Source: Aeromicrobium sp. Root495 (GTDB lineage Bacteria > Actinomycetota > Actinomycetes > Propionibacteriales > Nocardioidaceae). Taken from it: a DNA stretch of 64,000 bases. Every line of letters starts with the position of its first letter. Within the stretch, counting starts at the first letter, position 1. Below the pieces are notes generated by a model, which did not search any database, was not told where the DNA came from, and was given only the letters and a program-made list of their open reading frames with translations. Shown here piece by piece: positions 29,832 to 62,023 of the stretch. The position numbers and the translations under genes are program-made. Location of the stretch: contig NZ_LMFJ01000001.1 of assembly GCF_001426755.1 (NCBI RefSeq), positions 2,406,070 through 2,470,069 on the forward strand, written 5' to 3'.

Positions 29832-30819
29832 AGTCCGAGAAGACGCCGTCGACGCCTGCCTCGAAGAACCGCAGGTACTCGGCCGCAGCGTCACCGTGCG
29901 CCGAGCGCGCGGTGCCGACGCGGTAGTCGAGCGGCAGGAAGTTGTTCTCGTCGCGCATCGTCCAGATGTGCACCCAGAGACCGGCCTCGTGGGCCCTGCC
30001 CACGAGGCCGGTCTCGTCCGTGAGGCGGTGGTCCGGGGCACGCTCGATCACGAGGCTCTTGTTGGGTCCGATCCCGTCGGCGTAGGCCGCCACGAACTCC
30101 AGGCCGTCGGCGGTCGTGAGGTCCGCGTAGGTGCGGGGGTCGCCGGAGGCCACGAAGTCGAACGGGGCCCCGGCACGATCCATGAGCTGCACGAGCGGCG
30201 CGGGCGTGCGCGGCCGGAGCTCCTGGAGGTTGGCCGACTCCATCGACTGGATCACCACCGGGACGTCGGCGTCGTCGTCGTTGATGCCGAGCCTTTCCAT
30301 CTCGGCCACGAGGAGGTCGTTGAGGTCGAGGTCGAGGTCGTGGAAGTACGTGGGGTGCTTGGTCTCGACGTAGACGCCGACCCGGCGGCCGATCTCGGCC
30401 TCGTTGGCGTCGCGGGCGATCTGGACCACCTCGGCGAACGTCAGGATGGGTTCCCGGCCCGCCAGCACCAGGTTCTGCGGCCGGAGCTGCGGCAGCCGCT
30501 CCCGCGTCCGCAGCCTCTTGAGCTCGGCGAGGGTGAAGTCCTCCGTGAACCAGCCGCTGAACGGGACGCCGTCGACGACCTTGGTGGTGCGGCGCTCGGT
30601 GAACTCGGGGTGCTCGGCGACGTCGGTCGTGTGGCCGATCTCGTTCTCGTGCCGGACCACGAGATGGCCGTCACGGGTGGCCACGACGTCGGGCTCGATG
30701 AAGTCGGTGCCGAGCTCAATGGCCAGCTCGTACGACGGGCGGGTGTGCTCGAGCCGGTGGCCCGGCACGCCGCGGTGCGCGATGAGGACCGGAGCGCCCT
30801 CCTGGACCGAGCCGGTCAT
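29770..30819 (-). CDS. Glycerophosphodiester phosphodiesterase family protein
   Basis: A 349-aa GDPD-type hydrolase that would cleave glycerophosphodiesters to glycerol 3-phosphate and an alcohol. It shows LIAHRGVPGHRLEHTRPSY (catalytic His, Arg), GTDFIEPDVVATRDGHLVVRHE (metal ligands Glu, Asp; second His) and, late, LWVHIWTMRDENNFL and GVDGVFSDF. There is no signal peptide, so it is probably cytosolic. Its ATG overlaps the stop of the upstream gamma-glutamyltransferase (ATGA). Its C-terminus overlaps the PspC gene by 62 bp. Confidence 0.88.
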   Translation of the reverse strand: MTGSVQEGAPVLIAHRGVPGHRLEHTRPSYELAIELGTDFIEPDVVATRDGHLVVRHENEIGHTTDVAEHPEFTERRTTKVVDGVPFSGWFTEDFTLAELKRLRTRERLPQLRPQNLVLAGREPILTFAEVVQIARDANEAEIGRRVGVYVETKHPTYFHDLDLDLNDLLVAEMERLGINDDDADVPVVIQSMESANLQELRPRTPAPLVQLMDRAGAPFDFVASGDPRTYADLTTADGLEFVAAYADGIGPNKSLVIERAPDHRLTDETGLVGRAHEAGLWVHIWTMRDENNFLPLDYRVGTARSAHGDAAAEYLRFFEAGVDGVFSDFTQTAWAAREAFRAAVPAAG

Positions 30820-32342
30820 GGCACCGCCCGAACCAGCCGGACCGCGCCGTCGCGCCGCGGGTCCGCCGCGGCCTCCAGGTGGACGGTGCCGTCGGGCAGG
30901 GGGCGGCGGACCGTGGCACCCACCCCGCCGAAGTACATCGTCAGGTCGGTCTCGCGCTTCACGACCTCGTCGGGTCGGCCGGCGCGGTGCACGTGCACAC
31001 GCGGGTGGTTGACCGCCTGCTGAAGGGTGAGCCCTCCCGTGCAGTAGCCCGCGAGGACCTGCGCCAGGGCCGTGGAGATCCGATCGGCACCCGGGGAGCC
31101 GATGGCCAGCGAGGCACCGTCGTCGTGCTGCGCCACGGTGGGCGCCATGTTGGAGAGCAGCCGCGTGCCGGGGGCGAGGCCGTGAAGACCCCTCGGGTTG
31201 AGCTCCTGCTCACCGAGGCAGTTGTTGAGCCAGATCCCGGTGCCGCGCGCGATCATGCCCGATCCGTAGCCCGACGACACGGTCACGGCGCAGGAGCTGC
31301 CCTCGCTGTCGGAGGCGGACACATGGGCCGTCGAGGCCGGGCGGTCGGCGTTGCGCGCGGTGGGTGGGAGGCCGTCGAGCATCGCGAGGTAGGCCTGCGC
31401 ATCGCGCTCGAGGTCGTCGCTGGGGTCGAGCACGTCGAGACGATGACCCAGCACGAGTCGCTCCACCTCGACCATGCGCTCGACGTCGGCGTCGCTCCAG
31501 GATCCGCCGCTGGTCGCCTCGGGCCTTCCGTCGAGCAGGCGCAGCATGGCCGCGACGCACACGCCCCCGACCGAGGGCACCGGGTTGGTGCCGAGCCGCC
31601 ACGGCCCCACCTGCGCGACGAGCGACGGGCGGACCACCGGCCGGTAGGCGGCGAGGTCGCGGGCCGACAGGATCCCGCCGCGCTCCACGACGTCGGCGCT
31701 GATGAGCCGCGCGAGGTCGCCGGTGTGGAGCGCGGATGCGCCCTCGTCGGCGATGAGCTGGAGCGACGCCGCCAGGTCGGGGACCACGATCGGCTCGCTC
31801 GTGAGCTCGCCCTCGAAGCCCGGCCTGAGGTCGTGCACCGCAGAACGGCTCTGGTCGTCCCAGCCGAAGATGTCGTCGTGGACGTACTCGAGGTAGTACC
31901 GCGAGGCAGACCCGAGCCGGAAGCCCTCGCGGGCCACCTCGATGGCCGGTGCCACCACCTCGTGCCACGGGGCGACGCCCCAGCGTCGGTGGGCCTCCTC
32001 GAACGCCGCCACGGCTCCGTGCGCAGCGACGGACCCGGCGCCGATGGTGATGTCGACGCCGCCGCCGTAGGCCGTGCTGACGTCCCAGGTCCCGGACTGC
32101 TTCACCCCGACGTCCCGGCCGGGCATGTCCATCCAGCCGTCGACGGTCACGGGCGCCGAGCCGTCGGCGGGCTGCACCGTGACGAACCCGCCGGAGCTCA
32201 ACGAGACGATGCCCACCTCGTTGACCATCGTCACGAGCGCGGCGGCCAGGGCGGCGTCCACGGCGTTGCCGCCGAGGAGCGCGAGACGCTCACCCGCGGC
32301 GGCCGCGGCCTCGTTCGGCGCGGCGACCGCGACATCGGGCAT
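30816..32342 (-). CDS. Gamma-glutamyltransferase family protein
   Basis: A 508-aa Ntn-hydrolase. The large-subunit part begins [33 protein letters not shown]. The autoprocessing nucleophile is the Thr in [22 protein letters not shown], followed by the small-subunit motif NNCLGEQ and [14 protein letters not shown]. It lacks an export signal, so it may be cytosolic. The substrate could be glutathione-like, poly-gamma-glutamate or another amide. TAGGGT is 6 nt before the ATG (leaderless). It is cotranscribed with the GDPD gene. Confidence 0.85.
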
Positions 32343-33741: not shown

Positions 33742-34398
33742 CTAGTCGGCGTCGTCCTCGTTGTCGAGCGTCATCCAGTCCGACGCCTTGTAGCTCTTCA
33801 TGGTGCCGCTCGGGGCGGTGACCACGAGGGTGCCGTCGTAGCCGAGGATGCCGTACTCGGTGCCCTCGTCCTCGCCGATGAAGGCGTCGAGGTCGGAGAC
33901 GTAGCGAGCGGCCATGTCGACCGGCTTGCCGTCCTTGGGCTTGAAGGCGATCCGGAACTTGGCGCCCGAGGCGTCGACGCCGCAGACCGAGGCCTGGCCG
34001 CGCTGGGTGTACGTCTTGTAGAGGATCACGGGGTAGCGGCCGCCGCACGCGACGGTGAGCCCGCTCTTCTTCTCCTGCTCGACCGAGACCGGCGTGAGGC
34101 CGCAGTCGACCGGGAGGGTGTCCTCGTCGACGCCGGTGGGGTCGATGTCGCGCTTGCCGTCGTCGCACGGCTGGCCCGACGGCGAGGTGGCGCTCGCGCT
34201 CGGCGTGGCCGAGGGGCTCTTCGAGGGGGTGGCGCTGGGCGTGGCCTCGGCCGACGGCGCGCTCGAGGGTCCGGCGTTCGCGACACTGGCGTCGTCGCCC
34301 CCGCCCCGGAGGGCGATGACGGCGATGACGCCGGCCACGGCGATCAGGACGACCACCAAGATGGCCGTCCGGACACGTGCGAGTTGAGCTGAGCTCAC
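33742..34398 (-). CDS. Membrane-anchored extracytoplasmic protein, Ser/Pro/Thr stalk
   Basis: A 218-aa hypothetical. One N-terminal helix (residues 11-30, TAILVVVLIAVAGVIAVIAL) is followed by a Ser/Ala/Thr/Pro-rich stalk to about residue 75, then a C-terminal domain with cysteines in QPCDDGKRD, PVDCGLTP, TVACGGRYP and SVCGVDA that could form two disulfides. No family is recognised. The start is GTG at 34398 with an AGG-rich upstream region. Its stop lies 3 nt from the nhaA stop. Confidence 0.72.
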   Translation of the reverse strand: MSSAQLARVRTAILVVVLIAVAGVIAVIALRGGGDDASVANAGPSSAPSAEATPSATPSKSPSATPSASATSPSGQPCDDGKRDIDPTGVDEDTLPVDCGLTPVSVEQEKKSGLTVACGGRYPVILYKTYTQRGQASVCGVDASGAKFRIAFKPKDGKPVDMAARYVSDLDAFIGEDEGTEYGILGYDGTLVVTAPSGTMKSYKASDWMTLDNEDDAD

Positions 34399-35529: not shown

Positions 35530-36069
35530 TCATCGGACCTCGTCCAGACGCTCCCGAAGACCGGCAGCGAGCCCGAGGATCGTGAGCCAGTCGAAGAACC
35601 CTCCGCCCAGCGCGGCCAGTCGCTCTCGCCTCACACCGCCGAGGCGCAGTCGCAGGTGGATCCGGGTCGAGCCACCCACCTCGGTGAGCGCGATCGCCCA
35701 GGAGAGGCTGACGTGGCCTCGGGTGCTCACGTGGACCAGCGCTCGAGGCGGGTCGAGGACCGCCACCTCGAAGGTGGAGCCCGCACCGCCCCAGTCGGGG
35801 ATCACGTCGCCGACGGCGAGGTGCAGCAGCGACGGCTCGAGGTGGCGGATGGCACGTCGTCGGCGTGGCACGACACGCTCGACCGACCGTGGCAGGTACC
35901 ACCCCGCCCGATCCTTGCCGAGCTGGACGATCCACGGCCACACGACCGGCGGGGCCGCCCGGAGCGTGAACGCACGGTCCATCACGACGGACGCGGCCGG
36001 GACGACGTCATCCCCGGGCAGGGACGCCTCGACCTCCCGGCGGGTCGGCCGGATCGAGCGGGACGTCAT
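35530..36069 (-). CDS. SRPBCC (START-like) domain protein, separated from guaA by the island
   Basis: A 179-aa protein of the SRPBCC/polyketide-cyclase-like fold: TLRAAPPVVWPWIVQLGKDRAGWYLPRSVERV, then a VHVSTRGHVSLSWAIALTEVGGSTRIHLRLRL strand pair and a C-terminal helix. Ligand and role are unknown. Its ATG is flush with the left island repeat. Joining the two repeats would place this ATG 7 nt after the guaA stop on the same strand, using GGGAG from the guaA end as Shine-Dalgarno. The island has therefore cut it from its presumed guaA operon. Confidence 0.78.
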   Translation of the reverse strand: MTSRSIRPTRREVEASLPGDDVVPAASVVMDRAFTLRAAPPVVWPWIVQLGKDRAGWYLPRSVERVVPRRRRAIRHLEPSLLHLAVGDVIPDWGGAGSTFEVAVLDPPRALVHVSTRGHVSLSWAIALTEVGGSTRIHLRLRLGGVRRERLAALGGGFFDWLTILGLAAGLRERLDEVR

Positions 36070-36092
36070 GCCCGGCTCACTCCCACTCGATG
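36070..36092. repeat. Left attachment site (attL) of the island
   Basis: 23-bp sequence containing GGCTCACTCCCACTCGATG, identical to 62024-62046. The bases on either side differ (t/c before, t/g after), fixing the repeat length. It is the displaced 3' end of guaA (last four codons and stop) and carries the ribosome-binding purines of the SRPBCC gene. Confidence 0.93.
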
Positions 36093-36225
36093 TTTGGCGT
36101 TACGGCATAAATTGCTGCCCTTTGAGGAAATTATGAACTCACGTCGTCAACGCCTGCAACAATCGACGACATGAAATACGGCCGCGGGCTCACCTGTTGT
36201 GGTCACCAACACAGGAGGAACGCTC

Positions 36226-37266
36226 ATGCCCCGAAAGACATCGCCGACGGTGGAAGCCGCGATCAAGGACTTCCAAGACGTCCGCTCGACGCAGGTCGGT
36301 GAGCACGCCCTCTACAACGATGGTGTCATCCTGCAGCAACTTGCCAGAGCGGTAGGTCCTGCCAAACAGGTGCACCGGGCAATGGTTCCGAGCGTCGTCG
36401 AGCAATACATGGTGAATGAGAAACAACGTCTGAACGGCGCGTCATATAACAAGGTGCGCTCGCGGCTCAGCGGCTTCTTCCTCTTCTGTCGTCGCCGAGG
36501 GTGGCTCGACGACGACCCGCTGGCGTTTGTCGGTAAAGCACGCACCGTCCGAGCGGAGCGCTTGCGGCTCTCTCCTGCTGAACTGCTTGCCTTGCCCGGC
36601 TACGCGAAGATCCCGCGGGACAAAGCGCTGATCGTCGCAGCGTGCAACACAGCCATGAGGAGCGGAGAGCTTTGCAGTCTGCGCATCTCAGACGTCGACC
36701 TCGACCAGGGCTACATCCGCGCCGATATCACCAAGAGTGGCGTGCAGGATCAGATGCCTATACCGGATGAATTAGACACTGCGCTCCGCGAGTGGCTAAT
36801 CGTCTACGCAGCGGACGCCGGACCGCTGCAGCCCGAATGGTTGCTTTTCCCTCGCTTCAAGATCGGCGGAGGTCGCAGGATCTCAACTGGCCAGTTCGCA
36901 TCTGGCGCGCCCTTCGATCGAGTTGGGTCTTACTTGCCGACCGAGCCGATCAGGCACACTGCTCGCATTATTCAGACGGCGATGACAGACGCTGGCTTGA
37001 CGTTCGAGAAGGGTGAAGGAATGCACACCCTCCGTCGCAGCGCTGCCCGGGCGTACTTCGACTGGAGAGTGCAGAGCGGATACGACGGCGCCCTGAGGGA
37101 GTGCGCTGCCTGGCTTCACCACAAGAATGTGTCAACCACGGAGATCTACTTGGGAATCACGACTGAGAAGCTCCACCGAGACAAGGCCCTCAAGGGGAAG
37201 TCTTTTCTCAGTTCGATGATCGAGTCCGACAAGGTCATTCCGCTACGGTCGGCCGAAGGGACCTGA
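36226..37266 (+). CDS. int: Tyrosine recombinase (island integrase)
   Basis: A 346-aa integrase. A SAM-like core-binding domain occupies residues 10-100. The catalytic domain shows Arg145 in NTAMRSGELCSLR, Lys170 in ITKSG, His267 and Arg270 in HTLRR, a His in WLHHKN, and the nucleophile Tyr308 in TTEIYLG, so all catalytic residues are present. I start at ATG 36226, which has a perfect AGGAGG 7 nt upstream; GTG 36199 lies before that site. It lies 133 bp from attL and presumably recombines the 23-bp guaA core. Confidence 0.94.
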   Translation: MPRKTSPTVEAAIKDFQDVRSTQVGEHALYNDGVILQQLARAVGPAKQVHRAMVPSVVEQYMVNEKQRLNGASYNKVRSRLSGFFLFCRRRGWLDDDPLAFVGKARTVRAERLRLSPAELLALPGYAKIPRDKALIVAACNTAMRSGELCSLRISDVDLDQGYIRADITKSGVQDQMPIPDELDTALREWLIVYAADAGPLQPEWLLFPRFKIGGGRRISTGQFASGAPFDRVGSYLPTEPIRHTARIIQTAMTDAGLTFEKGEGMHTLRRSAARAYFDWRVQSGYDGALRECAAWLHHKNVSTTEIYLGITTEKLHRDKALKGKSFLSSMIESDKVIPLRSAEGT

Positions 37267-37412
37267 CCGCGTCCGCGCGCCCTCCGTGCCGACCTCTGCG
37301 TTATCGGCTCGACCCCTGTAGCTCAACGTCTGACGTTCCCCAGAACGAGCAACAAACTGCCCAGCTGGCGATTAGCCTTGGGCGCACCGTCGCGAAGGTC
37401 GAGCGGTAAAGA

Positions 37413-37940
37413 ATGAGGTCAGTCGTGCTTGGATTCGCCACCGTCGACAATCAAACCGAGAGCAGCGTCGTTGCCATCTGGTTGACAAGTCAGACGTCCC
37501 CAACCGCAGCAACCCACACCAACGCGGTGCGAGTCGAACTCCGCGAGGACCCGGACGCGTTTGAGAAGGTTCATGCTTTGACTCGCGATCGGATTCTCCT
37601 GCTAACCGATGGATCGGCCATCGACGGTCTTCCGTTGGAGGGCTATGCACTGAAGATCGACGACCTCGAACACCTAGCAGCAGCTACTGAATCGCTCAGG
37701 CTCGAAGTTGGCGTGAGCGTCCGGCCTGCGCGTGAAATGAACCGACCGGCGGAGGACACCCCAACTTTGCGCGCGTTGGAGTCGGCGAACTACCTTGCCG
37801 GCCTCTGGTCTGACTGGCTTGAGGCAGACAACGCGCGCAGAAAGCGCTGGGCTAAGCACGAGCCTCGTGAGCCCGAGGCGTTTCCGGCCGAATTCATCAA
37901 GGGCCTGGACCCCCAGCCAGTGCGGGCGTTCAATGCTTGA
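37413..37940 (+). CDS. Hypothetical protein coupled to the island exonuclease
   Basis: A 175-aa protein with no recognised family. It has alternating beta-rich and helical parts (SVVLGFATVDNQTESSVVA, then DLEHLAAATESLRLEV) and a charged C-terminus with RRKRWAKHEPREPEAF. Its last 8 bp overlap the start of the exonuclease gene, so both are translated from one message. The Shine-Dalgarno is weak. Codon use is less GC-biased than in the chromosome. Confidence 0.6.
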   Translation: MRSVVLGFATVDNQTESSVVAIWLTSQTSPTAATHTNAVRVELREDPDAFEKVHALTRDRILLLTDGSAIDGLPLEGYALKIDDLEHLAAATESLRLEVGVSVRPAREMNRPAEDTPTLRALESANYLAGLWSDWLEADNARRKRWAKHEPREPEAFPAEFIKGLDPQPVRAFNA

Positions 37941-38928
37941 CTTCACAGCGATCGATTTCGAGACGGCCAACTCGTACCGCGGGTCACCATGCTCGGTCGG
38001 GTTGATCAAGGTGCGAAATGGCTTGATCGTCGACGAGCAGCACTGGCTGATCCGCCCGCCCGAGGCCGCGGACTGGTTCGATCCGTTCAATATCAGCATC
38101 CACGGGATCACGCCGGTAATGGTGTCCGATGCTCCCCGGTGGCGCGAGGTGCTGCCGGATATTGTCGCATTCATCGGCGACGACGTGGTGATCGCGCACA
38201 ATGCAGGCTTCGATATTGGGGTCATTCGCTATGCCTGCGCCGTGGACAACATCGAGTGGCCAGCCATTGATTTCCTCTGCACTCTCGTCCTGGCTCGTCG
38301 AGCGTTCTCGCTGCCGTCCTATCGCCTTCCCTTTGTGACGGAGGCCTGCGGCGCAACCCTCGAACAGCACCACGACGCGCTGGCAGACGCGCGCGCTGTA
38401 GTTCACATCGTGCGCGGCTTGGCAGTTCTCGCGGGCACGTTGGACCTCAGGGAGTTGGCTTCGCTTCACCTAGTCCGGGTGGGCAGGATGGAGTCCGGGA
38501 TCTACTCCGGCTCAGTGAGCACCGCGAGTGGATCAGGTTCTCTTGTCGCAACCGAAGCAAACGCCGACGCAGACCCCGAAGGCCACCTGTTCGGTCGGGT
38601 GGTTGTGTTCACCGGTGCATTGATGTCGATGACCCGTCAGCTTGCGTGGGACGAGGTGGCACGCTCCGGTGGCACGCCGGAGTTGAACACTACGAAGCGC
38701 ACGAACGTGCTGGTGCTGGGCGACTTTAACCCCGCGAACTTGCGCCCCGGAGCGACGTACTCGGGCAAGGCCCGCAAGGCGTTCGAACTCCAAGACAAGG
38801 GTCAGGACATCGAACTGATGACTGAAGAGGACTTCCTACGAGTCCTCGATGGCCGCGACCTTGAAGTGCCCGACTTGGGTCTCCTCTTGGACGAGCCGAC
38901 CGACGAGCGCCCGCTCGACCTGATCTAG
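37933..38928 (+). CDS. DEDDh 3'-5' exonuclease with C-terminal BRCT domain
   Basis: A 331-aa protein. The DnaQ-like domain (1-180) carries Asp8 and Glu10 in AIDFET, His89-Asn90 and Asp94 in IAHNAGFD, and His147/Asp152 in HHDALADAR, the complete DEDDh active site. A BRCT domain follows at about 215-305 (GRVVVFTGALMSMTRQLAWDEV, then TNVLVLGDF). Exonuclease-BRCT fusions resemble the polymerase III epsilon-like proteins of actinobacteria. Within the island a role in element replication, repair or recombination is inferred. Confidence 0.87.
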   Translation: MLDFTAIDFETANSYRGSPCSVGLIKVRNGLIVDEQHWLIRPPEAADWFDPFNISIHGITPVMVSDAPRWREVLPDIVAFIGDDVVIAHNAGFDIGVIRYACAVDNIEWPAIDFLCTLVLARRAFSLPSYRLPFVTEACGATLEQHHDALADARAVVHIVRGLAVLAGTLDLRELASLHLVRVGRMESGIYSGSVSTASGSGSLVATEANADADPEGHLFGRVVVFTGALMSMTRQLAWDEVARSGGTPELNTTKRTNVLVLGDFNPANLRPGATYSGKARKAFELQDKGQDIELMTEEDFLRVLDGRDLEVPDLGLLLDEPTDERPLDLI

Positions 38929-39269
38929 TCAACGGAGTCGAGTGCCGCACCCTCACTGCCGTTGGTCCCGATTGGCCCGCACTAGCTTTTCGTCTCGAAG
39001 GTTGTCGACCCGAAAGGCTGGCTCCGTCTCGCGAACGAGCCTTGCGAGCTATCGAACCGCTCCAAGTGGTCGATTAACGTAACTTGCTTCTTTGGGTCTC
39101 GGCTCGCCTCGTAACGAGCGACATCCGTGATCGACGGCTGATTCCCGCGAAGGTCCACTGAGTGCAGCAAGTCCCGTCGAGGCGTCCCGGTTGCGCGTCG
39201 TCGAGGCTCGGCCCAAAAAGTGCCTCGCGAGAGAGAACTTGCCGCCGCCGAAAGTGTTCAGCCAGTACT
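38929..39269. other. Intergenic stretch, no supported gene
   Basis: About 340 bp between the exonuclease and the HTH gene. Only short minus-strand frames (for example 38982-39170) are present, without a recognisable ribosome-binding site or family. I see no RNA gene here. The promoter/operator of the next operon begins at its right edge. Confidence 0.4.
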
Positions 39270-39289
39270 ATGTTACTAGTGAGTAACAT
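39266..39289 (+). promoter_or_regulatory. Promoter/operator of the Xis-like operon
   Basis: A -10-like TACTAT (39266-39271) runs into a perfect inverted repeat ATGTTACT (39270-39277), AGTG, AGTAACAT (39282-39289), 12 bp before the GTG of the HTH gene. A dimeric repressor bound here would occlude the -10. Confidence 0.6.
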
Positions 39290-39300
39290 GTAGAGGTTGG

Positions 39301-39489
39301 GTGAACAGAATGGTGACCTTGAAGGTCGAGACAGAGTTTCTGCGGGTCAACGACGTCAGCGAGATGCTCGGCTTGAATCGACGCACGGTCTATTCGATCA
39401 TTGCGCGCGACGAACTAAAGGCAACGAAGCTAGGTGGACAGTGGTTCATCCGAAGCTCTGACGTGACGGCATTGATGGGCGGCGCGTGA
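39301..39489 (+). CDS. Excisionase-type helix-turn-helix protein
   Basis: A 62-aa protein that is essentially one MerR/Xis-like HTH: LRVNDVSEMLGLNRRTVYSIIARDELKATKLGGQWFIRSSDV. Such proteins bend DNA at att sites to direct excision, or act as small repressors. The start is GTG 39301 with AGAGG upstream; ATG 39310 is possible. Its TGA overlaps the next ATG. As the only Xis-like protein in the island it is the best candidate recombination directionality factor. Confidence 0.8.
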   Translation: MNRMVTLKVETEFLRVNDVSEMLGLNRRTVYSIIARDELKATKLGGQWFIRSSDVTALMGGA

Positions 39490-39683
39490 TGAGCGGCCAG
39501 AGCGAGATCAGCCTCATCGACGGTGGCCGGATCGTTGGGACGATTACCGAGTTTGACGACAACGCCTACTACGTCGAACAAGTCACTCGGATCCATCGGG
39601 GCCGCCGACTCTTCAAGTTTCATCCAAGCGGCACGACTGCGGTCCCCCACGAGGTCATCGTGGCGGTGATGCCCAGTGACTGA
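39489..39683 (+). CDS. Small hypothetical protein of the island
   Basis: A 64-aa protein, ATG overlapping the HTH gene stop by one base (TGATG). It looks beta-rich (ISLIDGGRIVGTITEFDDNAYYVEQV, RRLFKFHPSGTTAVPHEVIVAV). No family is recognised; the coupling suggests one operon with the HTH protein. Confidence 0.6.
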   Translation: MSGQSEISLIDGGRIVGTITEFDDNAYYVEQVTRIHRGRRLFKFHPSGTTAVPHEVIVAVMPSD

Positions 39684-39984
39684 GCACTCGAAGTGCGCAG
39701 CCTGTGGATCAAGTCTTCCTGCGGTGGGCGCTGCAGTGCCGTCCCACCTGCCGGAGTTCGATCTTCGCCACGCGATCTGTTCGGATGCCTACTGGGCCAT
39801 GGTCAAGGCCTCCGAAGATCCTGAGACCGTTGAACGCTTCCTAGACTCGCGTCCACATCGCGCTGGACAACTATCGCGCGCCCGCGCGTGGAGTGAGCTC
39901 GAACCTCGTTCTCGGATCGAGTTTGAGGCCTGGCTTATTGAGATTCTGAGGGCACGAGAGTCCTGCAGCGAGCTAGCCGCATGA
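39676..39984 (+). CDS. Small hypothetical protein with CxxC motif
   Basis: A 102-aa protein starting at GTG 39676, overlapping the previous gene by 8 bp. The N-terminal KCAACGSS is a single zinc-ribbon half, and a later Cys occurs in ESCSELAA. The rest is helical and charged. No family is recognised. Confidence 0.55.
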   Translation: MTEHSKCAACGSSLPAVGAAVPSHLPEFDLRHAICSDAYWAMVKASEDPETVERFLDSRPHRAGQLSRARAWSELEPRSRIEFEAWLIEILRARESCSELAA

Positions 39985-40025
39985 CCCCATCGCTCTCCCA
40001 TACCCATGCGAATTGTCTTCGAACG

Positions 40026-40529
40026 TCACCGCGTGCCGCGCGACCCTCTCGGCCGACCGGTGACGGAGGGAGCGATCAGACCCAGGTCTCGTGCCCTCTT
40101 GATCCAGACGTCAGCCGTTTTCGGGCTGACCTGAAACCGCTCCGCGAGTTCTCGCCGTCCCATCCCCTGCCGGTTGAGTTCCGCGAGCTCCTCAGAGGAT
40201 GGTCGATCCATCTTCCGCGGCGTATCCATAGTCACCGGGGCCCCCGGTCGATTCCTCAGTTCGCCCGCTCGAAAATCCTGAGCCTGCCGTGCGAGCTGCC
40301 GCAGCGGAACGCGATCCAGGATCGCCTGCGTCATTACGCCGCCCTCATCGAGCGGCTCAATAACCAGCCTCTTGACCGCCGGCTTTCCCGCCTCGGCACC
40401 CAACACCACTTCGTACCGCACACCCCTCGCCGGATCCTCGATCGTCACGACATCGATGTCAGGGTCGACACCGCTTCCCACCCCGGTCGTACCCAGGCTG
40501 AGGATCCACTTTCTGTCCATCTCGCTCAT
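40026..40529 (-). CDS. HTH-domain regulator divergent from the ADP-ribosyltransferase-like gene
   Basis: A 167-aa protein. The N-terminal half is a beta-rich domain (WILSLGTTGVG, VVTIEDPARGVRYEVVL). The C-terminal part carries a helix-turn-helix, ELNRQGMGRRELAERFQVSPKTADVWIKRARDLGLI, and a basic tail. The ATG at 40529 faces an inverted repeat GAAACT-N11-AGTTTC (40535-40557) shared with the divergent gene at 40583. The arrangement suggests it represses itself and its neighbour. Confidence 0.68.
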   Translation of the reverse strand: MSEMDRKWILSLGTTGVGSGVDPDIDVVTIEDPARGVRYEVVLGAEAGKPAVKRLVIEPLDEGGVMTQAILDRVPLRQLARQAQDFRAGELRNRPGAPVTMDTPRKMDRPSSEELAELNRQGMGRRELAERFQVSPKTADVWIKRARDLGLIAPSVTGRPRGSRGTR

Positions 40530-40534
40530 CTACC

Positions 40535-40557
40535 GAAACTCTCACACTTGAAGTTTC
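40535..40557. promoter_or_regulatory. Shared operator between HTH and ART-like genes
   Basis: Inverted repeat GAAACT (40535-40540) and AGTTTC (40552-40557) with 11-bp spacing, one helical turn between half-site centres plus about half, within the 53-bp divergent intergenic region. Confidence 0.5.
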
Positions 40558-40582
40558 TGTGTCAACTCGGCAGGCTGTTTAC

Positions 40583-41371
40583 ATGAATAGTTTCCAGGGA
40601 GGCGCAGAGCTCCGGCTCCTGCCAAGCCTCAAGAAGTCCGAAGGCCAGATCCTGCCCACACCCTTCACGACGAGCGCCTCAGGGCTCCAACAGTCATCCG
40701 TCTCCCCCGACAGTGAGGTCACTGGCAACCAAGCGGGCGACTCTGTCGACGTCTGGGCGGCGCTGGGTTCGAGCCGACCAGGTGAGGGGAGAGTCATTGA
40801 CGCAGATGCGTTCCTCGCGTTGCAGAAGCAGAGCGTCGAACAGGCCCTCGCCGAAGCCTGGGACTTCTTGATGGACGAAGGCCACACTGTCGAAGATCTG
40901 CGAAATGCGTGCTCACGAGTCGGTCGCAATAACGAGCCGGCGCTAATCTGGGATCTCTGGTGCGAGGACGGGTGGCACGACGGGATCGCTCAAATCGTTG
41001 GCGACGTCTGGTCGGCAGCCGAGTACCCGGAACGAGCTCTCGATCAGTCAATGTGGCTGGAGATCTTCGGCTATGCCGGCTTTCGAAGAGACGGAGAGGT
41101 TGCTCCTCCCCCGGCCGAGTCGTTGACTCTGTATCGCGGTGCAACCGCGGAGGGCCGCTTCGGCATGTCGTGGACTAACGACCTGGAAGTCGCGGAGAAA
41201 TTTGCGCGCGCTGGAATCCGCGGGCGAGCAGTCGGCACCGTCTGGACCGCAGAAGTAGAACCGCGCTATCTGTTGGCGTACGTAGGCAGGGAAGGTACCC
41301 GCGGTGAATCTGAGTACGTGGTGGACCCCGCGGGCTTGATTGACGTCCGCGAGTTTGGGGGGTCCCGATGA
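40583..41371 (+). CDS. Putative R-S-ExE ADP-ribosyltransferase
   Basis: A 262-aa protein. The C-terminal half resembles mono-ADP-ribosyltransferases of the R-S-E type: LTLYRGAT with Arg185, FGMSWTND with Ser196 in the place of the STS motif, a helix LEVAEKFARAGIRG, and GESEYVVDPA carrying E242-x-E244, the ExE motif that directs arginine modification. The N-terminal half (VEQALAEAWDFLMDEGHTVEDLRNAC) is helical and unassigned. There is no signal peptide, so it should act inside the cell, as a toxin, defence effector or regulator. It is coupled to the 92-aa gene (ATGA). Start ATG 40583; GTG 40559 is possible. The family was assigned by motif reading only. Confidence 0.6.
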   Translation: MNSFQGGAELRLLPSLKKSEGQILPTPFTTSASGLQQSSVSPDSEVTGNQAGDSVDVWAALGSSRPGEGRVIDADAFLALQKQSVEQALAEAWDFLMDEGHTVEDLRNACSRVGRNNEPALIWDLWCEDGWHDGIAQIVGDVWSAAEYPERALDQSMWLEIFGYAGFRRDGEVAPPPAESLTLYRGATAEGRFGMSWTNDLEVAEKFARAGIRGRAVGTVWTAEVEPRYLLAYVGREGTRGESEYVVDPAGLIDVREFGGSR

Positions 41372-41646
41372 ACTGCGAAAACTCGCTGCCCACCACACCG
41401 ACGGGTTGGGGAGTCTGCCGATCACCTGAAGTTCTATTCATCACGACAACGTGCTGCGGAGAGCCGCTAGAGGACGGGACCTCCTGCTTCGGTTGTGGCG
41501 AGTATGTCCTCGACCGGTTCCCTCGAGGCGACTTGATCACTGATTGCGGCGAGCTCGAGTACAGCGACCTGTCGACATTGTCCCCGACAGTTGCAATGTG
41601 GACCGGCTACCCCGTGGGATGCATCCACGTCGAGGTGAAGCCGTGA
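41368..41646 (+). CDS. Small Cys-rich protein coupled to the ART-like gene
   Basis: A 92-aa protein, ATG overlapping the ART-like stop (ATGA). It contains TTCCGEPLEDGTSCFGCGEYVL, with Cys pairs spaced like a small zinc ribbon. Immunity protein or antitoxin for the ART-like protein is one possibility from coupling; no family is recognised. Confidence 0.55.
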   Translation: MNCENSLPTTPTGWGVCRSPEVLFITTTCCGEPLEDGTSCFGCGEYVLDRFPRGDLITDCGELEYSDLSTLSPTVAMWTGYPVGCIHVEVKP

Positions 41647-41750
41647 TGAACAACGAATGCCTAGCGGTACGCCGGCTCTACAGTTTCGCCTGCGTCAAGA
41701 CGGACCCGAACTCGATCAATGTCGAGTTGCTCAGTCGTGATGCAGCATGA
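41646..41750 (+). CDS. Very small ORF between coupled genes
   Basis: A 34-aa frame whose ATG follows the previous stop within TGATGA and whose stop overlaps the Prim-Pol ATG. It may be a real micro-protein, or a translational bridge that keeps ribosomes moving into the Prim-Pol gene. Confidence 0.4.
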   Translation: MNNECLAVRRLYSFACVKTDPNSINVELLSRDAA

Positions 41751-42601
41751 TCAACGATCTGGTGAAGTTCAACGACATGTCGCTCGCAGATGCGGCGCTG
41801 GCGTTCCTTGACATCGGACTCAGTGTCTTCCCCTGCCAACCCGCAGATAAGAGGCCCGCGACCACACACGGCTTCAAGCAGGCCGTCTCCTTGGACAGAT
41901 TGGCGGGGAAGGACGCCGAGGCCGTCGAGAAGTTCCGTCACGACACGATTGAGTTCTTCTCCGCTGGGGGTTACAACATTGGCCTTCCGACAGGACTGCA
42001 AGTCGATGTTCTAGACGTAGACGTCAAGGGCGGCAAGCCAGGACTTCGAGCTCTGAGGACTCTACGGGACGCGGGACTACTCGACGGTGCCGTAGCTACT
42101 GCCGAAACCCCCTCTGGGGGATATCACGTTTACTACCCAGTCTCCGGCGAGAAGAGTAAGTCAATCGGCTCACTAGGGCTCGACTGGAAGGCTCAGGGCG
42201 GCTACGTCCTCGCGGGGCCGTCCGCCGTGATGCAGGCGGAGCCTTTCGGCTTTCGACCGTATAAGTGGCTTTGGAGTAGGCCTCTGGACGCGGGCAGTTG
42301 CCTGACCTGGCAGCAGGTCATGGACTGCCTTGGCGTCAAGAAGCCCGAACCTCGCGTGTACGACCCTGACCCTTTCCAGAAGCCCGAAGACGTTGTGGAT
42401 GCCATGAGCAGGTGGCTGTCATCTGCGAATGAGGGCGACAGAAACAAGCGGCTCTTCTGGGCAGCAACCCGGTGCGCCGAGGCGGGCGCTAGAGAGGGTC
42501 AATTGCAGCCCCTCTACGACACAGCGGCTCGAATCGGTCTCACTGATGGCGAGATCCAAGCGACCGTACGAAGTGGTTACAGGACAGGGACACAGCAATG
42601 A
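41747..42601 (+). CDS. Bifunctional DNA primase/polymerase (Prim-Pol) protein
   Basis: A 284-aa archaeo-eukaryotic-type primase domain. It shows the VFPCQPADKRPATTHGFKQA N-terminal motif, the metal-binding DVD at residues 90-92 (VLDVDVKGG), SGGYHVYY with His127, and the GGYVLAGPS strand. The helical tail from about 200 is probably the linker to the helicase. It is coupled to the next gene (ATGA). Prim-Pol plus a RepA-like helicase is a common replication module of plasmids, satellites and integrative elements. Confidence 0.88.
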   Translation: MINDLVKFNDMSLADAALAFLDIGLSVFPCQPADKRPATTHGFKQAVSLDRLAGKDAEAVEKFRHDTIEFFSAGGYNIGLPTGLQVDVLDVDVKGGKPGLRALRTLRDAGLLDGAVATAETPSGGYHVYYPVSGEKSKSIGSLGLDWKAQGGYVLAGPSAVMQAEPFGFRPYKWLWSRPLDAGSCLTWQQVMDCLGVKKPEPRVYDPDPFQKPEDVVDAMSRWLSSANEGDRNKRLFWAATRCAEAGAREGQLQPLYDTAARIGLTDGEIQATVRSGYRTGTQQ

Positions 42602-43770
42602 GCAATCTGGGTATTGAAGCGATCGAGACTGTCGAACCGCTGACCACCGCAGATGCAGCCGAGATCCAGCATGAGGCCGAACACACGCAGGACCTGGCCG
42701 TAGCTTTGCGGAAGAAGCGCGTGGACCGTGAAGCCAACCGCATCCTTGACGCAGAGGAGCGTGGGGGTGGTGGTCCAGCAAGTTGGCTACCCGTGGACAT
42801 GAAGGCCGTGTCCTGTGACCCGATCGTACCTACCGTTGGTCATCGGTCGGACGGCGCGCAGATCTTCTACCGTGGTGCGCTCAACACAGTCTTCGGTGAA
42901 TCCGAAGGGGGCAAGACGTGGTTCTGTCTACACCAAGCGGCGCAGATCATCATCAGCGGTAAACGCGTCGTGATGCTCGACTATGAGGACGGGGCGCAAG
43001 GTGCGAAGGTCCGCCTGATGCAGCTCGGCGTGCCTGAAGCCTTCATCAATAATCCGAACCTGTTCACTTACCTCAACCCGCAGGCTGTCTTTGATGATGA
43101 CGTTTTCGAGTCGCTCGCGGAGACATTCCAGAATGCCGAGATGGTACTCATCGATGCCTTCTCCGAGGCCGCTGCGCTGGAGGGCGTTGACGACTACCGT
43201 TCGGTTTCGGTCGCAGGTTGGTACACGCGCTTCCCGCGTCGAATCGCTGCCCTTGGACCTGCCGTCGTCCTGATCGACCACGTGAATAAGGCAGCCGATG
43301 CCAAAGGTCAGCAAACTGGCTCCCAGCACAAGAAGGCTGGCGTCGACGGCATCTCGCTCCGTGTGTCACCGATTCAGCAATTCGCTGAAGGTCACGGTGG
43401 CGCATCGATCGTCCACATCGGCAAGGACCGTCACTCAGGCGTCAAGAAGAACGCAGTCCGCGGTGAGAAGAACGAGCCGATGAGGTTCGCGATCCTCAAG
43501 GCCGATGAGTACGGCAACTGGACTCTCGATCCCGCCGCAGAGCCCGTAGACGCCGACAGCAAGGCGGCGGCGAAGGACTACATCCTTCGAGGTCACGTGG
43601 CGACCGTGATGGCTGATCCCGCAGCAGAGCGAACAAGGTCGGGAACGGTCAAGAAGGAATCCATGAGGAAGGCCGTCAGAGCACTCTATGGATCATGCGA
43701 TAACGGAGATATTGACCGAGCCTATGACGAGGTTCTCGCGTCTCGGAAGGCTGAAACTCCATCGTCGTAA
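42598..43770 (+). CDS. RepA-like RecA-fold helicase (AAA_25)
   Basis: A 390-aa RecA-fold ATPase. It has Walker A GESEGGKT at residues 100-107, RVVMLDYEDGAQGAKVRL after it, Walker B EMVLIDAFSEA and the sensor region VVLIDHVNKAADAKG. The C-terminal region is charged. Related proteins are hexameric replicative helicases of plasmids (RepA type). It overlaps the Prim-Pol gene by 4 nt and is followed directly by the repeat-rich candidate origin. Confidence 0.87.
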   Translation: MSNLGIEAIETVEPLTTADAAEIQHEAEHTQDLAVALRKKRVDREANRILDAEERGGGGPASWLPVDMKAVSCDPIVPTVGHRSDGAQIFYRGALNTVFGESEGGKTWFCLHQAAQIIISGKRVVMLDYEDGAQGAKVRLMQLGVPEAFINNPNLFTYLNPQAVFDDDVFESLAETFQNAEMVLIDAFSEAAALEGVDDYRSVSVAGWYTRFPRRIAALGPAVVLIDHVNKAADAKGQQTGSQHKKAGVDGISLRVSPIQQFAEGHGGASIVHIGKDRHSGVKKNAVRGEKNEPMRFAILKADEYGNWTLDPAAEPVDADSKAAAKDYILRGHVATVMADPAAERTRSGTVKKESMRKAVRALYGSCDNGDIDRAYDEVLASRKAETPSS

Positions 43771-43880
43771 ATCTGCTGGATTCAGCAGATTCTGCTAGCA
43801 CCTTCTGCTGACGTGCTGCTGCTATATAGCAGCACGGCACAGCATGGGGAATCAGCAGCAGAAGTTCAGCAGAGAAGACC
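43771..43880. repeat. CTGCTG/CAGCAG repeat cluster, candidate replication origin
   Basis: Directly after the helicase stop lie ATCTGCTG (43771-43778) and its inverse CAGCAGAT (43783-43790), further CTGCT copies near 43791 and 43805, the perfect 18-bp palindrome TGCTGCTATATAGCAGCA (43817-43834) with an AT centre, and CAGCAGCAG and CAGCAG near 43853 and 43867. About eight copies in both orientations within 110 bp suggest binding sites for the element's initiator. No coding frame crosses it convincingly. Confidence 0.55.
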
Positions 43881-43972
43881 TAATAGAAAGTTCTGCCTTT
43901 GCCTGCGCACAGCGAGACCGCGGTGCATTGTGAGACGGACGGCGCTTCCCTCATTTCTGTCGAACTCGGCGG

Positions 43973-44281
43973 TCAGACTGGGTTCTCCGCACCGGCATCG
44001 GCCAGCGACGCGTTAGTCGGGGCGTACAGAACCTTCTCGCCTGCTGGTCCGAAGCATCCCTCGAAGAAGAACATGTAGTAGCCGCCGACTGGCTCATCAC
44101 CTTCGCGAACGTACCGAGCGAACGGACTGGTCGCCGCCGGCTGCTTGAGGGGGATGGTCAGCGCGTGAGGCACCGTCTGGTCGGGCGGAACCGCTGGGAT
44201 CTTGAAGCGCTGCCCGTCAAGAGGTCCGCCAAGCAGACCCGCCGGAACGTGCACAACGCTGCATTCATCGAAGTTGTGCAT
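43973..44281 (-). CDS. Small phage-type hypothetical protein
   Basis: A 102-aa protein with the LGGPLDGQRFKIP motif near its N-terminus, a short signature common in actinophage and actinobacterial hypothetical proteins, followed by Tyr/Phe-rich VGGYYMFFFEGCFGPAGEKVLYAP. The ATG at 44281 is preferred because GGGGG lies 8 nt upstream. It overlaps the 3' end of the recombinase gene by 17 bp. Function is unknown. Confidence 0.6.
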   Translation of the reverse strand: MHNFDECSVVHVPAGLLGGPLDGQRFKIPAVPPDQTVPHALTIPLKQPAATSPFARYVREGDEPVGGYYMFFFEGCFGPAGEKVLYAPTNASLADAGAENPV

Positions 44282-44885
44282 GAGCATCCCCCGAACTGCT
44301 CGCGACGCTCGATTGAGCCGCGCTCTCAAGCACCCGGTAGATCGTCGGACGCGAGACCCCGAACATCTCAGCGATGCTCTTGATCTGCTTGCCCTCCCTA
44401 TGGAGGTGCTGAACGACCTCAATCTGGTCGGACGACAACGACGGCTTGCGACCAGGCTTCGCGCCACGTTCTCGAGCTGCAGCTAGGCCAGCCTTCGTGC
44501 GATCGATGATTAGGTCACGCTCAAACTCAGCCAAAGACGCGAAGATATGAAAGATGAGTTTGCCAGTCGAGCTCGTAGTGTCGATTGACTCGTGAATTGA
44601 CCTAAAGCCGACTCCTCGAGCTTCGAGCTCAGAGACGATGCGCACCAAGTCAGCCAACGAACGGCCAAGCCGATCCAGCCGCCAGACAACAAGCACGTCG
44701 CCCTTCCGGACATAGTCAAGCGCGGCCCCTAGTTGAGGGCGATCAGTCTTCGCGCCGCTCGCCTTCTCTTCGAAGATCTTGATCGAGCCGATCTCATTCA
44801 AGGCATCGAGCTGAAGCCCTAGATTCTGATCATGCGTCGAAACTCGCGCATACCCGACCATCGTTCCGGCCTGCGAATTGTCCAT
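44265..44885 (-). CDS. Serine recombinase (resolvase/invertase family)
   Basis: A 206-aa small serine recombinase. The nucleophile Ser16 lies in YARVSTHDQNL, catalytic arginines in WRLDRLGRSLADL (Arg69, Arg72, Arg75), the long E helix in ASLAEFERDLIIDRTKAGLAAARERG, and a C-terminal Hin-like HTH in KQIKSIAEMFGVSRPTIYRVL. The ATG at 44885 is chosen because GGAGGT lies 5 nt upstream; ATG 44861 is in frame. No transposase is adjacent. It may resolve element multimers or come from an older transposon. Confidence 0.9.
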   Translation of the reverse strand: MDNSQAGTMVGYARVSTHDQNLGLQLDALNEIGSIKIFEEKASGAKTDRPQLGAALDYVRKGDVLVVWRLDRLGRSLADLVRIVSELEARGVGFRSIHESIDTTSSTGKLIFHIFASLAEFERDLIIDRTKAGLAAARERGAKPGRKPSLSSDQIEVVQHLHREGKQIKSIAEMFGVSRPTIYRVLESAAQSSVASSSGDAHAQLR

Positions 44886-45158
44886 CAACCACCTCCGCTG
44901 TAACGCAATCCAATGCGTCCGCCCATTCTGAGACGAATAGGCAGGTTCTAAATCGTACACGGATTACGGACGCGAGTCAGCTGCCAAAACGGCTGAAATC
45001 GCGTTCACTGAGACCGCTGACGACCGTGTAACTAAAAGGACCGTTTACGGGCGCAGTCCCGCCGACGGCCCAATGGCCGCCGACCATCATTACCGACTCT
45101 CAGGTCGGTCGATTGTGCACGACTCGTCGCCATCACTGTTTCTGTCGTGACAATCCAC
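44886..45158. other. Junction between replication core and catabolic cargo, no gene
   Basis: About 270 bp with short inverted repeats only (for example CCGAC/GTCGG near 45090-45105). It divides the recombinase from the TetR gene and may contain the recombinase target site. I can define no feature with confidence. Confidence 0.3.
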
Positions 45159-45164
45159 TAATAT
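45159..45164 (+). promoter_or_regulatory. Candidate -10 box TAATAT, leaderless (TetR gene)
   Basis: TAATAT, TTGTCC, then the ATG at 45171. The best -10 match in the island, with the same 6-nt spacing seen in the chromosome. Confidence 0.5.
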
Positions 45165-45170
45165 TTGTCC

Positions 45171-45806
45171 ATGACGACACCGCTAAGGGAGTCCTACCGC
45201 GCTCACCTTCGGAAGCGAGCCCTGGAAGCCGCATACGGCGAAACCGTCGATAAGGGGTGGGACAAGGTGAGGGTCGGGCAGATCGCTGCCTTGATCGGTG
45301 CTCCCCGCGCGATGCTCTACAAGGAGTTCGGAGACAAGCAGGGGCTGGGCGAGGCACTCGTCCTTCACGAGGCCGACCGATTCCTCGCTGGCATCAAGGA
45401 GGTCCTTGAGAGGTTCTCGACCGATGCGGCAGGTGGGATTCAGGCATCAGTTCAGTTCACTCTGGCCGAATCTGAGAAGAGCCCCCTGCTGCGAGCCGTG
45501 CTGGTGTCCTATCGCGACCCGGTGCTCGATCCCGGAGCGCTAGACACGCGGAAAGGCATGCTGCCGCTGATCACGACGTCGGGACGACTGCTGGACGTAT
45601 CAAGCGAGACCCTTGCTGCGTGGCTCCACCACCAGTTTCCTCAGCTCAACGGGTCGGACGTCCAGGATGCGACAGACGCATTGGTGCGCCTCACGGTCAG
45701 CCACCTTGCACTCCCCGGGGCAGACGCTGTGGCCACCGGCCAGCAGATCTCGGAAGTGGCGTTGAGGTACCTGGGCCTGCAGCGGTCCGAAGCACCATCG
45801 CTGTGA
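45171..45806 (+). CDS. TetR-family transcriptional regulator
   Basis: A 211-aa regulator. The N-terminal HTH reads KVRVGQIAALIGAPRAMLYKEFGDKQGLGEAL, followed by a helical ligand domain. The C-terminal domain carries RKGMLPLITTSGRLLDVSSETLAAWL. It starts at ATG 45171 behind TAATAT. It opens the alkane cargo and converges with the AraC gene 47 bp away. It probably responds to a hydrophobic substrate or acyl-CoA; this is inference. Confidence 0.88.
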   Translation: MTTPLRESYRAHLRKRALEAAYGETVDKGWDKVRVGQIAALIGAPRAMLYKEFGDKQGLGEALVLHEADRFLAGIKEVLERFSTDAAGGIQASVQFTLAESEKSPLLRAVLVSYRDPVLDPGALDTRKGMLPLITTSGRLLDVSSETLAAWLHHQFPQLNGSDVQDATDALVRLTVSHLALPGADAVATGQQISEVALRYLGLQRSEAPSL

Positions 45807-45853
45807 GACTGCTCCCAGGACCGGGCCGGTCCTGCGTCATCGATCTTCTTCAT

Positions 45854-46850
45854 CGCGCCGAAATTCGCTCGGGGACTGGCCCGTCCATCGCTTGAAAGCG
45901 TGAGAGAAGTTGGCCACGTCGCCGTAACCGAGGTCAGTGGCTATCTCGCTCACCGATACCGATCGCTCGAGCAGCAGCAACGTTGCACGCTCCTTGAGCG
46001 AGGCTTCACGTATGTCGCGGAATGTCATCCCCTCACCTGCGAGACGCCGCTTGAGAGTGCTGACGGACATCGACAGCTCGGCCGCAACGGACTGGCCGCT
46101 TCTCAGCACCGCTCCTTCATCTATCAGACTCCTCACAGCTCGCGAGAACGTCCTGGCCCCCCGACGATGCTCGAGATCATCCTCGAGGTCGGATATAGCG
46201 TGTCGGTACGCGATCGGGTCAGAGAATCGGCACACCTCGGTGAGCGTCGCGGCCGGAACGCGAAGGAACGAGATCGGGGCGTCGAAAGTCAGCCGGCCGG
46301 CACGAACGTCCTCGTGATCACCCATCGACGATGGCATCCGCCAACTTAGGTGGAGCGTGACGGTGGACATGTCACCAACAAGCAGTTCAAGCAGGCGAAC
46401 GAGTGCAGATCCACAGTAGGTGACTGCCAAACGGTCCAGGTCTGGGTCGCCCGAGAGCCCGTTGAGTACCACAGTGAGACCACGCTCACTCGGATGCATC
46501 TGAGGGCTCAGGGCAGTCGTGATCAGCGGCAAGAAGGTCAGCAACTCGACGATCTCAGAGACCGAGCCGGCGCTGACGAGGGGGAGGCTCAACGGGCCGA
46601 AAGAGGTCAGTTGCGCTTGGTCCGCGCACGCCAGCCCAAGCCGTGTGGCCTCGTCTGAGTCAAGTTCTGGGTAAACCTCCCGGAACCATCGCAATGGCGC
46701 CTGCACATCGCGCTCGACGAGCGCTCGAGCATCCAGTCCCTCGCGAGCCATGATGCCGTCGAATCGTGCGACGGCCGCCGGGTCAAGAGCCTCGCTTGCC
46801 AGGAGTTGGGCAAACGCCAAGGGAGGCACGCCCACTTCGTCGCGATCCAC
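45854..46850 (-). CDS. AraC-family regulator of the CYP153 operon
   Basis: An AraC protein with an N-terminal 'arabinose-binding' ligand domain of the OruR type (DPAAVARFDGIMAREGLDARAL, LTFDAPISFLRVPAATLTEVC) and a C-terminal HTH pair (SVAAELSMSVSTLKRRLAGEGMTFRDI, VSVSEIATDLGYGDVANFSHAFKRWTGQSPSEFR). The reading frame runs to a stop near 45837, so the last few residues extend just below the left coordinate given. GTG 46850 has GGGGAG upstream; TTG 46856 is the other option. It is divergent from ferredoxin-CYP153-reductase. In Dietzia an AraC-type regulator (CypR) activates a CYP153 operon with n-alkanes, so the same role is likely. Confidence 0.85.
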
Positions 46851-46892
46851 GACCAACTCCCCACATGCTCAATGAGCCAAATTCACAACATC

Positions 46893-46915
46893 TTGACCCG
46901 GGTGACACTAGTCAC
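46893..46915 (+). promoter_or_regulatory. Putative regulatory site of the CYP153 operon
   Basis: TTGACC (46893-46898) followed by the inverted repeat GTGAC-ACTA-GTCAC (46902-46915) in the 132-bp divergent region between the AraC and ferredoxin genes. No convincing -10 follows at standard spacing, consistent with an activator-dependent promoter. Confidence 0.4.
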
Positions 46916-46982
46916 AGCCACCTGCCGTGGCAACACTGGGGTGAGGGTCTTTCCACGCTTCCGACCACATCAGGAGTTCTCC

Positions 46983-47303
46983 ATGGCAGTTGTCACCTTC
47001 GTGTCGTACGACGGCGAGAAGTTCGAGGCCACGCTCAAGGAGGGTCAGTCCTTGATGCAGGTCGCTGTCAACGACGCAATTCCCGGAATCGACGGGGACT
47101 GCGGAGGGGAAGCGGCGTGCGGCACCTGTCACGTGGTGGTTGACCCACAGTGGTCCGAGACGGTCGGCCTCTCGAGCCCAGAAGAAGAGGAGATGCTCTC
47201 GATGAACCCTGAGCGTCAACCGACTTCTCGCCTTTCGTGCCAGATGGCGGTATCCGCGGCATGGGACGGATTGACCGTCGAACTCCCCGAATTCCAGATG
47301 TGA
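46983..47303 (+). CDS. [2Fe-2S] ferredoxin for CYP153
   Basis: A 106-aa adrenodoxin/putidaredoxin-type ferredoxin. Cluster ligands are Cys40, Cys46 and Cys49 in CGGEAACGTC and Cys86 in LSCQM. It ends in LPEFQM, a typical Met-terminated tail of P450 ferredoxins. It passes electrons from the reductase at 48714 to the P450. AGGAG lies 7 nt before the ATG. It is the first gene of the ferredoxin-P450-reductase operon (25 nt before the P450). Confidence 0.94.
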   Translation: MAVVTFVSYDGEKFEATLKEGQSLMQVAVNDAIPGIDGDCGGEAACGTCHVVVDPQWSETVGLSSPEEEEMLSMNPERQPTSRLSCQMAVSAAWDGLTVELPEFQM

Positions 47304-47328
47304 CGACGAGAGACCAGGACACCTCACG

Positions 47329-49916: not shown

Positions 49917-49967
49917 CCCGGTTCCAGCATCGATCTGCGCGCCTTGCGATCCCGCAGGCTGCTGCCG

Positions 49968-50645
49968 TCACTTGTGGATTCGCTCACGCGCCAACTCATC
50001 CACCATTCGCGTCAGGGTTTCGTGGAGTTGTCGCGTGCCTTCGCTGACAGCATCGGAAGTCGACAGGCCCTCACCTAGATCCGCCAGGCGGAGCGGAAGC
50101 CCGACGTCGATGCTGACTCGGGGCCGTCCCAGAAGGCTCGGACGACGGCTGTATGCCGGAAGAATCTCTTGCGCCCCCCACTGCGCCACCGGAATGAGTG
50201 GGGCCCCCGACTCGAGTGCTAGCCGGACCGCTCCTGTCTTCAGATTCATCGGACGCCCGCGCTGGTCTACCGTGATCGAGCCCTCGGGGTAGACCACGAG
50301 AAGCGCGCCTCCCTGTAGCGCCCTCAACGCTGCGCCGAAGCCATCACCGCCGTGATCGCGATCGACTTCGACATGTCCGGCCGCACGAAACCAGGTTCCC
50401 ACCAGGCCCCGACTGAAAAGACTGGTCTTGGCAAGGAATGCAGGGGTTCGCCCCCTCGCCAGCACCAGTTCGGCGATCAGCAACGGGTCGATCTCGGAGA
50501 CGTGGTTCACGGCGAGCACTGCACCACCCCGCGAAGGGATCCTGTCCACGTCACGCCAGTCGCGACGACGCACAGCAACCAGAACGGGCTTGCAGACTAT
50601 GTACGCAATCCACCACGCCACTCCCCGTCTCGGGATCGCGATCAC
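49968..50645 (-). CDS. PlsC-type 1-acyl-glycerol-3-phosphate acyltransferase family
   Basis: A 225-aa acyltransferase. The HxxxxD motif is NHVSEID near residue 47-53, and the glycerol-phosphate region is VVYPEGSITVDQRGRP. One N-terminal hydrophobic stretch is present (WWIAYIVCKPVLVAV). It probably esterifies acyl chains onto glycerol phosphate or another alcohol. It is the last gene of the seven-gene operon, start overlapping the thioesterase stop (GTGA). This suggests that hydrocarbon-derived acyl groups are incorporated into lipid or storage esters. Confidence 0.86.
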   Translation of the reverse strand: MIAIPRRGVAWWIAYIVCKPVLVAVRRRDWRDVDRIPSRGGAVLAVNHVSEIDPLLIAELVLARGRTPAFLAKTSLFSRGLVGTWFRAAGHVEVDRDHGGDGFGAALRALQGGALLVVYPEGSITVDQRGRPMNLKTGAVRLALESGAPLIPVAQWGAQEILPAYSRRPSLLGRPRVSIDVGLPLRLADLGEGLSTSDAVSEGTRQLHETLTRMVDELARERIHK

Positions 50646-62001: not shown

Positions 62002-62023
62002 GTACGTCTCCGCAGGTCAGACC

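Follow-up and report, generated by a model that had tools for sequence, protein, structure and literature searches.

Mobile islands that target the 3′ end of guaA have been published. Two guaA-associated genomic islands, GIsul2 (PMC9376610) and ICERspD18B (PMC7775301), are described in the accessible parts of their reports as using the guaA 3′ end as target, with GAGTGGGA in the site, and the accessible part of a third report gives guaA as the insertion site of a streptococcal ICE, ICE_SmiB6_guaA (PMC4701971). Here we analyze a window of 64,000 nucleotides from Aeromicrobium sp. Root495 (the whole stretch of DNA under study), in which an island of this kind separates guaA from a gene encoding an SRPBCC-fold protein. 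Titles and opening lines of abstracts retrieved for guaA operon, genomic island and polar effect, and for Aeromicrobium genomic islands, held no report of the present case.

An unbiased repeat search of the window identified a direct repeat at 36070-36095 and 62024-62049, with a spacing of 25,954 and 25 of 26 positions identical (96%). Read on the minus strand, it contains a 23-bp exact core, CATCGAGTGGGAGTGAGCCGGGC, at 36092..36070 and 62046..62024. The guaA-side core (62024..62046, minus strand) consists of the end of guaA plus 7 bases past its stop codon, and the final base of the SRPBCC-side core (36070..36092, minus strand) adjoins the ATG of the SRPBCC gene. Genome-wide, exact matches to the 17-mer ATCGAGTGGGAGTGAGC are confined to the two att copies; at 2 mismatches it has two more places, compared with one place at ≤2 mismatches for the backwards control pattern. 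The guaA gene itself (62031..63638, minus strand; a GMP synthase of 535 aa with a GTG start, assigned from its translation and the Pfam families GATase and GMP_synt_C) has a coding sequence complete to the stop, with the C-terminus TIEWE-stop. The repeat spacing and a step in composition (GC 0.616 in 36070-62049 versus 0.724 in the left flank, 1-36069) delimit an integrated island of ~25.95 kb at 36070..62046. Just inside its SRPBCC-side edge, and divergent from the SRPBCC gene, the ORF list shows a tyrosine recombinase gene (36226..37266, plus strand; 346 aa from its ATG, with an alternative GTG start at 36199 likewise open), which matches PF00589 at E 1.5e-15 and a PHROG integrase. The locus thus has what marks a guaA-associated island, namely direct repeats containing the guaA 3′ end and GAGTGGGA, and a tyrosine-type integrase gene inside. 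Because the guaA 3′ end with GAGTGGGA has already been published as an island target, this is a guaA-targeting mobile island of an already known type.

Like GIsul2 and ICERspD18B, as far as the available text of their reports goes, the present island targets the guaA 3′ end, has the 8-bp GAGTGGGA in its site and carries its own integrase gene; we also count as a likeness their att site or repeat of 19–20 bp. It differs from both in its host, an actinobacterium with ~72% GC, and in its cargo, which includes a PD-Lambda-5-like pair, a P450 and an aldehyde dehydrogenase and in which no relaxase or conjugation family had a Pfam match among the island ORFs scanned, several of which are without any match. 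ICE_SmiB6_guaA, in the part of its report available, shares the site-specific insertion at the guaA 3′ end and the tyrosine integrase, whereas its repeats are said there to hold the exact gene end only and it carries a Tn916-family conjugation module (PMC4701971); the present repeat extends 7 bases past the stop, and no such module was matched in the island. With this locus, the range of hosts of guaA-targeting islands extends to a high-GC actinobacterium. Its integrase is rare: among 391 sampled genomes of the order, matches at E 1e-40 were found in two, the first being its own genome and the second, at 38%, belonging to a different genus of the family. A search of five other genomes for related integrases at E 0.01 gave hits in G018 only (E 7.5e-4 and 4.5e-3), and G014, which is 58% complete, gave none.

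The SRPBCC-side repeat copy reads CATCGAGTGGGAGTGAGCCGGGCATG, that is, TGA, 7 nt and ATG. As the core ends directly before the SRPBCC ATG, joining the two att copies sets this ATG 7 nt behind the guaA stop on the same strand. The repeat cores and gene coordinates thus agree with the sequence-only reading on this geometry, and the spacing of 25,954 bears out its statement that the gene now lies ~26 kb from guaA. By the usual logic of att sites, this was most likely the arrangement just before integration, the empty site being deduced; the joined 22-base site had no match in public genome contigs, a set that may leave out genomes very near the window. The motif GGGAG, put forward as the ribosome-binding site of the SRPBCC gene, is indeed present in the guaA end and, because the SRPBCC-side repeat copy carries it, still stands 10 nt upstream of the ATG today, a spacing that is long for a ribosome-binding site. 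Since these 23 nt ahead of the ATG do not differ between the occupied and the deduced empty site, insertion can have altered only where the transcript comes from: the translation signals would be the same, and the one loss would be read-through from guaA. An island of this kind can therefore swap a gene's neighbor and leave the 23 nt before its start codon unchanged. The intergenic stretch 36093..36225, with the integrase gene on one side and the divergently oriented SRPBCC gene on the other, is by this position the likely place of any nearby SRPBCC promoter today. Scans of 35500-36400 for sigma-70-type promoters and terminators returned no sites, the sigma-70 null saying little for such a genus. 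Expression of the SRPBCC gene may possibly have changed with the insertion.

The SRPBCC gene (35530..36069, minus strand; 179 aa, ATG start) lies outside the island and has an intact reading frame. Searches with its protein drew no match from Pfam at 0.01 or from NCBIfam at 0.001. In an alignment of 27 members, comprising the window protein and 26 of the 35 homologues found in public genome contigs, Polyketide_cyc2 (PF10604) matches 14 members, with a best E of 4.4e-7, the window protein itself not being among them. The predicted model of the window protein, built on this alignment (pLDDT 89, pTM 0.85), has the element order of the helix-grip fold: a strand, helices, strands and a long C-terminal helix. 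At E ≤ 0.001, Foldseek matched it to 146 PDB chains. TM-scores in the best 50 of these are modest (~0.34–0.68), and many of the 50 are PYR/PYL receptors, Polyketide_cyc-like proteins or uncharacterized proteins. The SRPBCC label given from the letters alone is thus right at the level of the predicted fold.

Composition places the gene less clearly. Its overall GC of 0.724 equals that of the left host flank, and its GC3 of 0.861 compares with 0.931–0.963 in the three host genes measured (guaA, gene Y and a gamma-glutamyltranspeptidase gene) and lies above the 0.688–0.832 of the island genes (five genes plus the integrase). As this value falls between those of host and island genes, composition leaves a host origin of the SRPBCC gene unproved and gives room for its arrival with an earlier element.

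We then compared what follows guaA in relatives. Of 48 other Aeromicrobium genomes, 47 gave a guaA hit, the exception being G016; once G001 and G015, which have too little sequence behind guaA, were left out, 45 relatives remained in which 1 kb or more could be read. In these 45, the sequence following guaA (~1.5 kb each, 7.8 kb in G014) contained no SRPBCC match at E 1e-3, and the longer stretches available for 13 of them, 1.8–18 kb behind guaA, held none at E 1e-4. The direct follower of guaA is a gamma-glutamyltranspeptidase gene in 8 relatives (within 130 nt), a homologue of gene Y in 13 and something else in 24. The window holds both genes on the guaA strand: gene Y (33742..34398, minus strand; 218 aa, no Pfam match) and the gamma-glutamyltranspeptidase gene (30816..32342, minus strand; PF01019). 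To the left of the SRPBCC gene, the window thus reads gene Y, an in-between region and gamma-glutamyltranspeptidase, as does the sequence following guaA in G018, and the SRPBCC gene with a few small ORFs lies between these genes and the island. From this gene order, the SRPBCC gene appears to have been added in this lineage and not to be a long-standing partner of guaA.

Two further observations concern this region. In G021 (L062:5423-5872) and G027 (L047:3209-3649), a different same-strand gene, of 149 aa in G021, follows guaA; it is not significantly similar to the window SRPBCC gene, and its first 26 residues, the only ones scanned, match Polyketide_cyc2 at E 1.2e-4, below the curated cut-off, so it is probably of SRPBCC type. 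Between the SRPBCC gene and gene Y, on the opposite strand, lies a 110-aa ORF of coding-like composition (34849-35181, plus strand) with no relatives among the loci compared. We considered the small ORFs between these two genes as a conserved unit and rejected this, because outside their own genome the loci compared gave a single weak match, to one ORF (L120, E 5.7e-5).

Close homologues of the SRPBCC gene (E 1e-20) are present in six of the 48 other Aeromicrobium genomes, and all six lie away from guaA. In G067, G061 and G025, the gene stands divergent beside an aldo/keto reductase gene, which has matches at E 1e-60 in five of ten genomes searched, the window's own genome not among them. In G023, it is ~0.73 Mb from guaA, and in G021 and G015 it is on a contig other than that of guaA, with different upstream sequence. 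Weaker matches (36–40% identity) in G031, G009 and G014 are likewise on contigs other than guaA's. Combining the 35 homologues from public genome contigs with six further genome stretches gave 41 records, four places occurring twice and leaving 37 distinct; none has guaA in its available flanks, which reach at least 10 kb only where contigs allow.

The upstream neighbors of these homologues speak in part for the sequence-only reading. We applied a rough rule, without a control, that accepts an upstream ORF on the same strand with at least 60 codons and coding-like third-position GC; several of the starts are insecure, CTG having been used where no better codon offered itself, and the rule seems to miss L111 and L116, whose upstream sequence resembles that of L098. 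By this rule, such an ORF ends at most 80 nt ahead of the SRPBCC start or at most 20 nt past it at 22 of the 37 loci, and at 13 the gap is ≤20 nt or the two overlap, so a close upstream gene is common for the family. Judged by their printed ends, the 13 upstream ORFs are of nine different kinds. Among the six Aeromicrobium relatives, three (G021, G015 and G023) have a tight upstream gene and the other three are those beside the aldo/keto reductase. A position 7 nt behind guaA would fit this habit.

The sequence-only reading had gone further and taken guaA and the SRPBCC gene for an operon that the island split, proposing that the gene adjoining guaA in relatives be checked. That check has now been run with the outcome that speaks against the claim: the SRPBCC gene is elsewhere in all six close-homologue relatives, and adjacency is found in none of these six, none of the 45 guaA loci and none of the 41 homologue records. 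A conserved guaA-SRPBCC operon is not supported. Since the SRPBCC gene does not keep one position from species to species, adjacency in this one lineage is possible. Joining two att copies is by itself an unsafe basis for proposing an operon, and relatives are needed. With no conserved operon in the relatives, most of what the locus shows is usual for an island of this known type.

Taken together, these results make it probable that a guaA-targeting island inserted beside an accessory host gene that stood behind guaA in this lineage only. The SRPBCC gene would have come to lie 7 nt behind guaA before the island arrived. The island, using its own tyrosine recombinase, would then have inserted site-specifically in the guaA 3′ end, leaving guaA complete including its stop, and would have put 26 kb between guaA and the SRPBCC gene while rebuilding the identical 23 nt upstream of the SRPBCC ATG. 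Any read-through from guaA would have been cut, and the source of the SRPBCC transcript would probably have shifted to the short stretch at the island end.

An alternative we consider unlikely is that an earlier element, inserted at this site, brought in the SRPBCC gene, in which case today's edge would mark the boundary between two stacked insertions and not the host's original flank. In the loci compared from relatives, the interval from guaA to gene Y showed no match to the SRPBCC gene or its adjoining small ORFs, the GC3 of the gene is intermediate, and 7 bases after the guaA stop, GCCGGGC, are common to the guaA-side island end, G014, G018 and G033, as the scar of an older element would be; but at up to 2 mismatches the 16-base inner core has only its two copies in the window, and the overall GC of the gene is that of the host flank. 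We give still less credence to guaA and the SRPBCC gene having formed a functional operon that the island broke with a polar effect on the host: the TGA, 7 nt and ATG on one strand of the deduced joined site and the 13 of 37 homologue loci with a tight upstream ORF, which make use of an upstream gene's transcript plausible for this family, are set against the missing adjacency in relatives, the differing upstream neighbors of the SRPBCC gene between genomes and the unchanged 23 nt before its ATG. Most speculative is the broader idea, which we regard as a long shot, that SRPBCC genes of this family are wandering tail genes: they would move in again and again directly behind the stop codons of unrelated host genes, or across them, and depend on the transcripts of those genes. 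Here one would have settled behind guaA, until an island with the same stop-codon target took the promoter position.

The single-insertion history that we favor is complicated by sequence shared at the guaA-side island end. The 22 bases GCCGGGCGGTCTGACCTGCGGA that follow the guaA stop (62009-62030) recur exactly behind guaA of G014 (L070:904-925) and, with 3 mismatches (19 of 22), directly behind guaA of G018 (L068). Among 49 genomes, GCCGGGCGGTCTGACCTGCGGA has two exact places, its own and that in G014, and 13 places at 3 mismatches compared with 7 control places, so matches at 3 mismatches elsewhere are near background. The ORF beside the shared bases in G014 looks like a fragment of what we take to be an IS3-type transposase. 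We rejected native host sequence as the main reading of this island end, because after a single crossover the guaA side belongs to the element. The simplest account would be that the shared 22 bases are scars of older islands of the same family.

Further island genes were noted in three stretches. At 37795-44960 are replication-type genes (an exonuclease, a Prim-Pol and an AAA ATPase) together with a resolvase/invertase-like serine recombinase, perhaps derived from a phage satellite or plasmid-like element. The PD-Lambda-5-like pair at the guaA end of the island (59348-60352, plus strand, and 60321-61829, minus strand) is convergent with a slight overlap, and both parts match PADLOC models: part B, a methyltransferase, at E 2.4e-95 and part A at E 1.1e-24, its best stretch covering residues 9–154 of 502. 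Eight further island ORFs in the same PADLOC scan were without a match. Between these stretches, at 45165-57144, lies metabolic cargo with TetR and AraC-type regulators and genes for a cytochrome P450, a ferredoxin reductase-like protein, an acyl-CoA ligase, a short-chain dehydrogenase and an aldehyde dehydrogenase, along with a BtrH-like and a transglutaminase-like gene.
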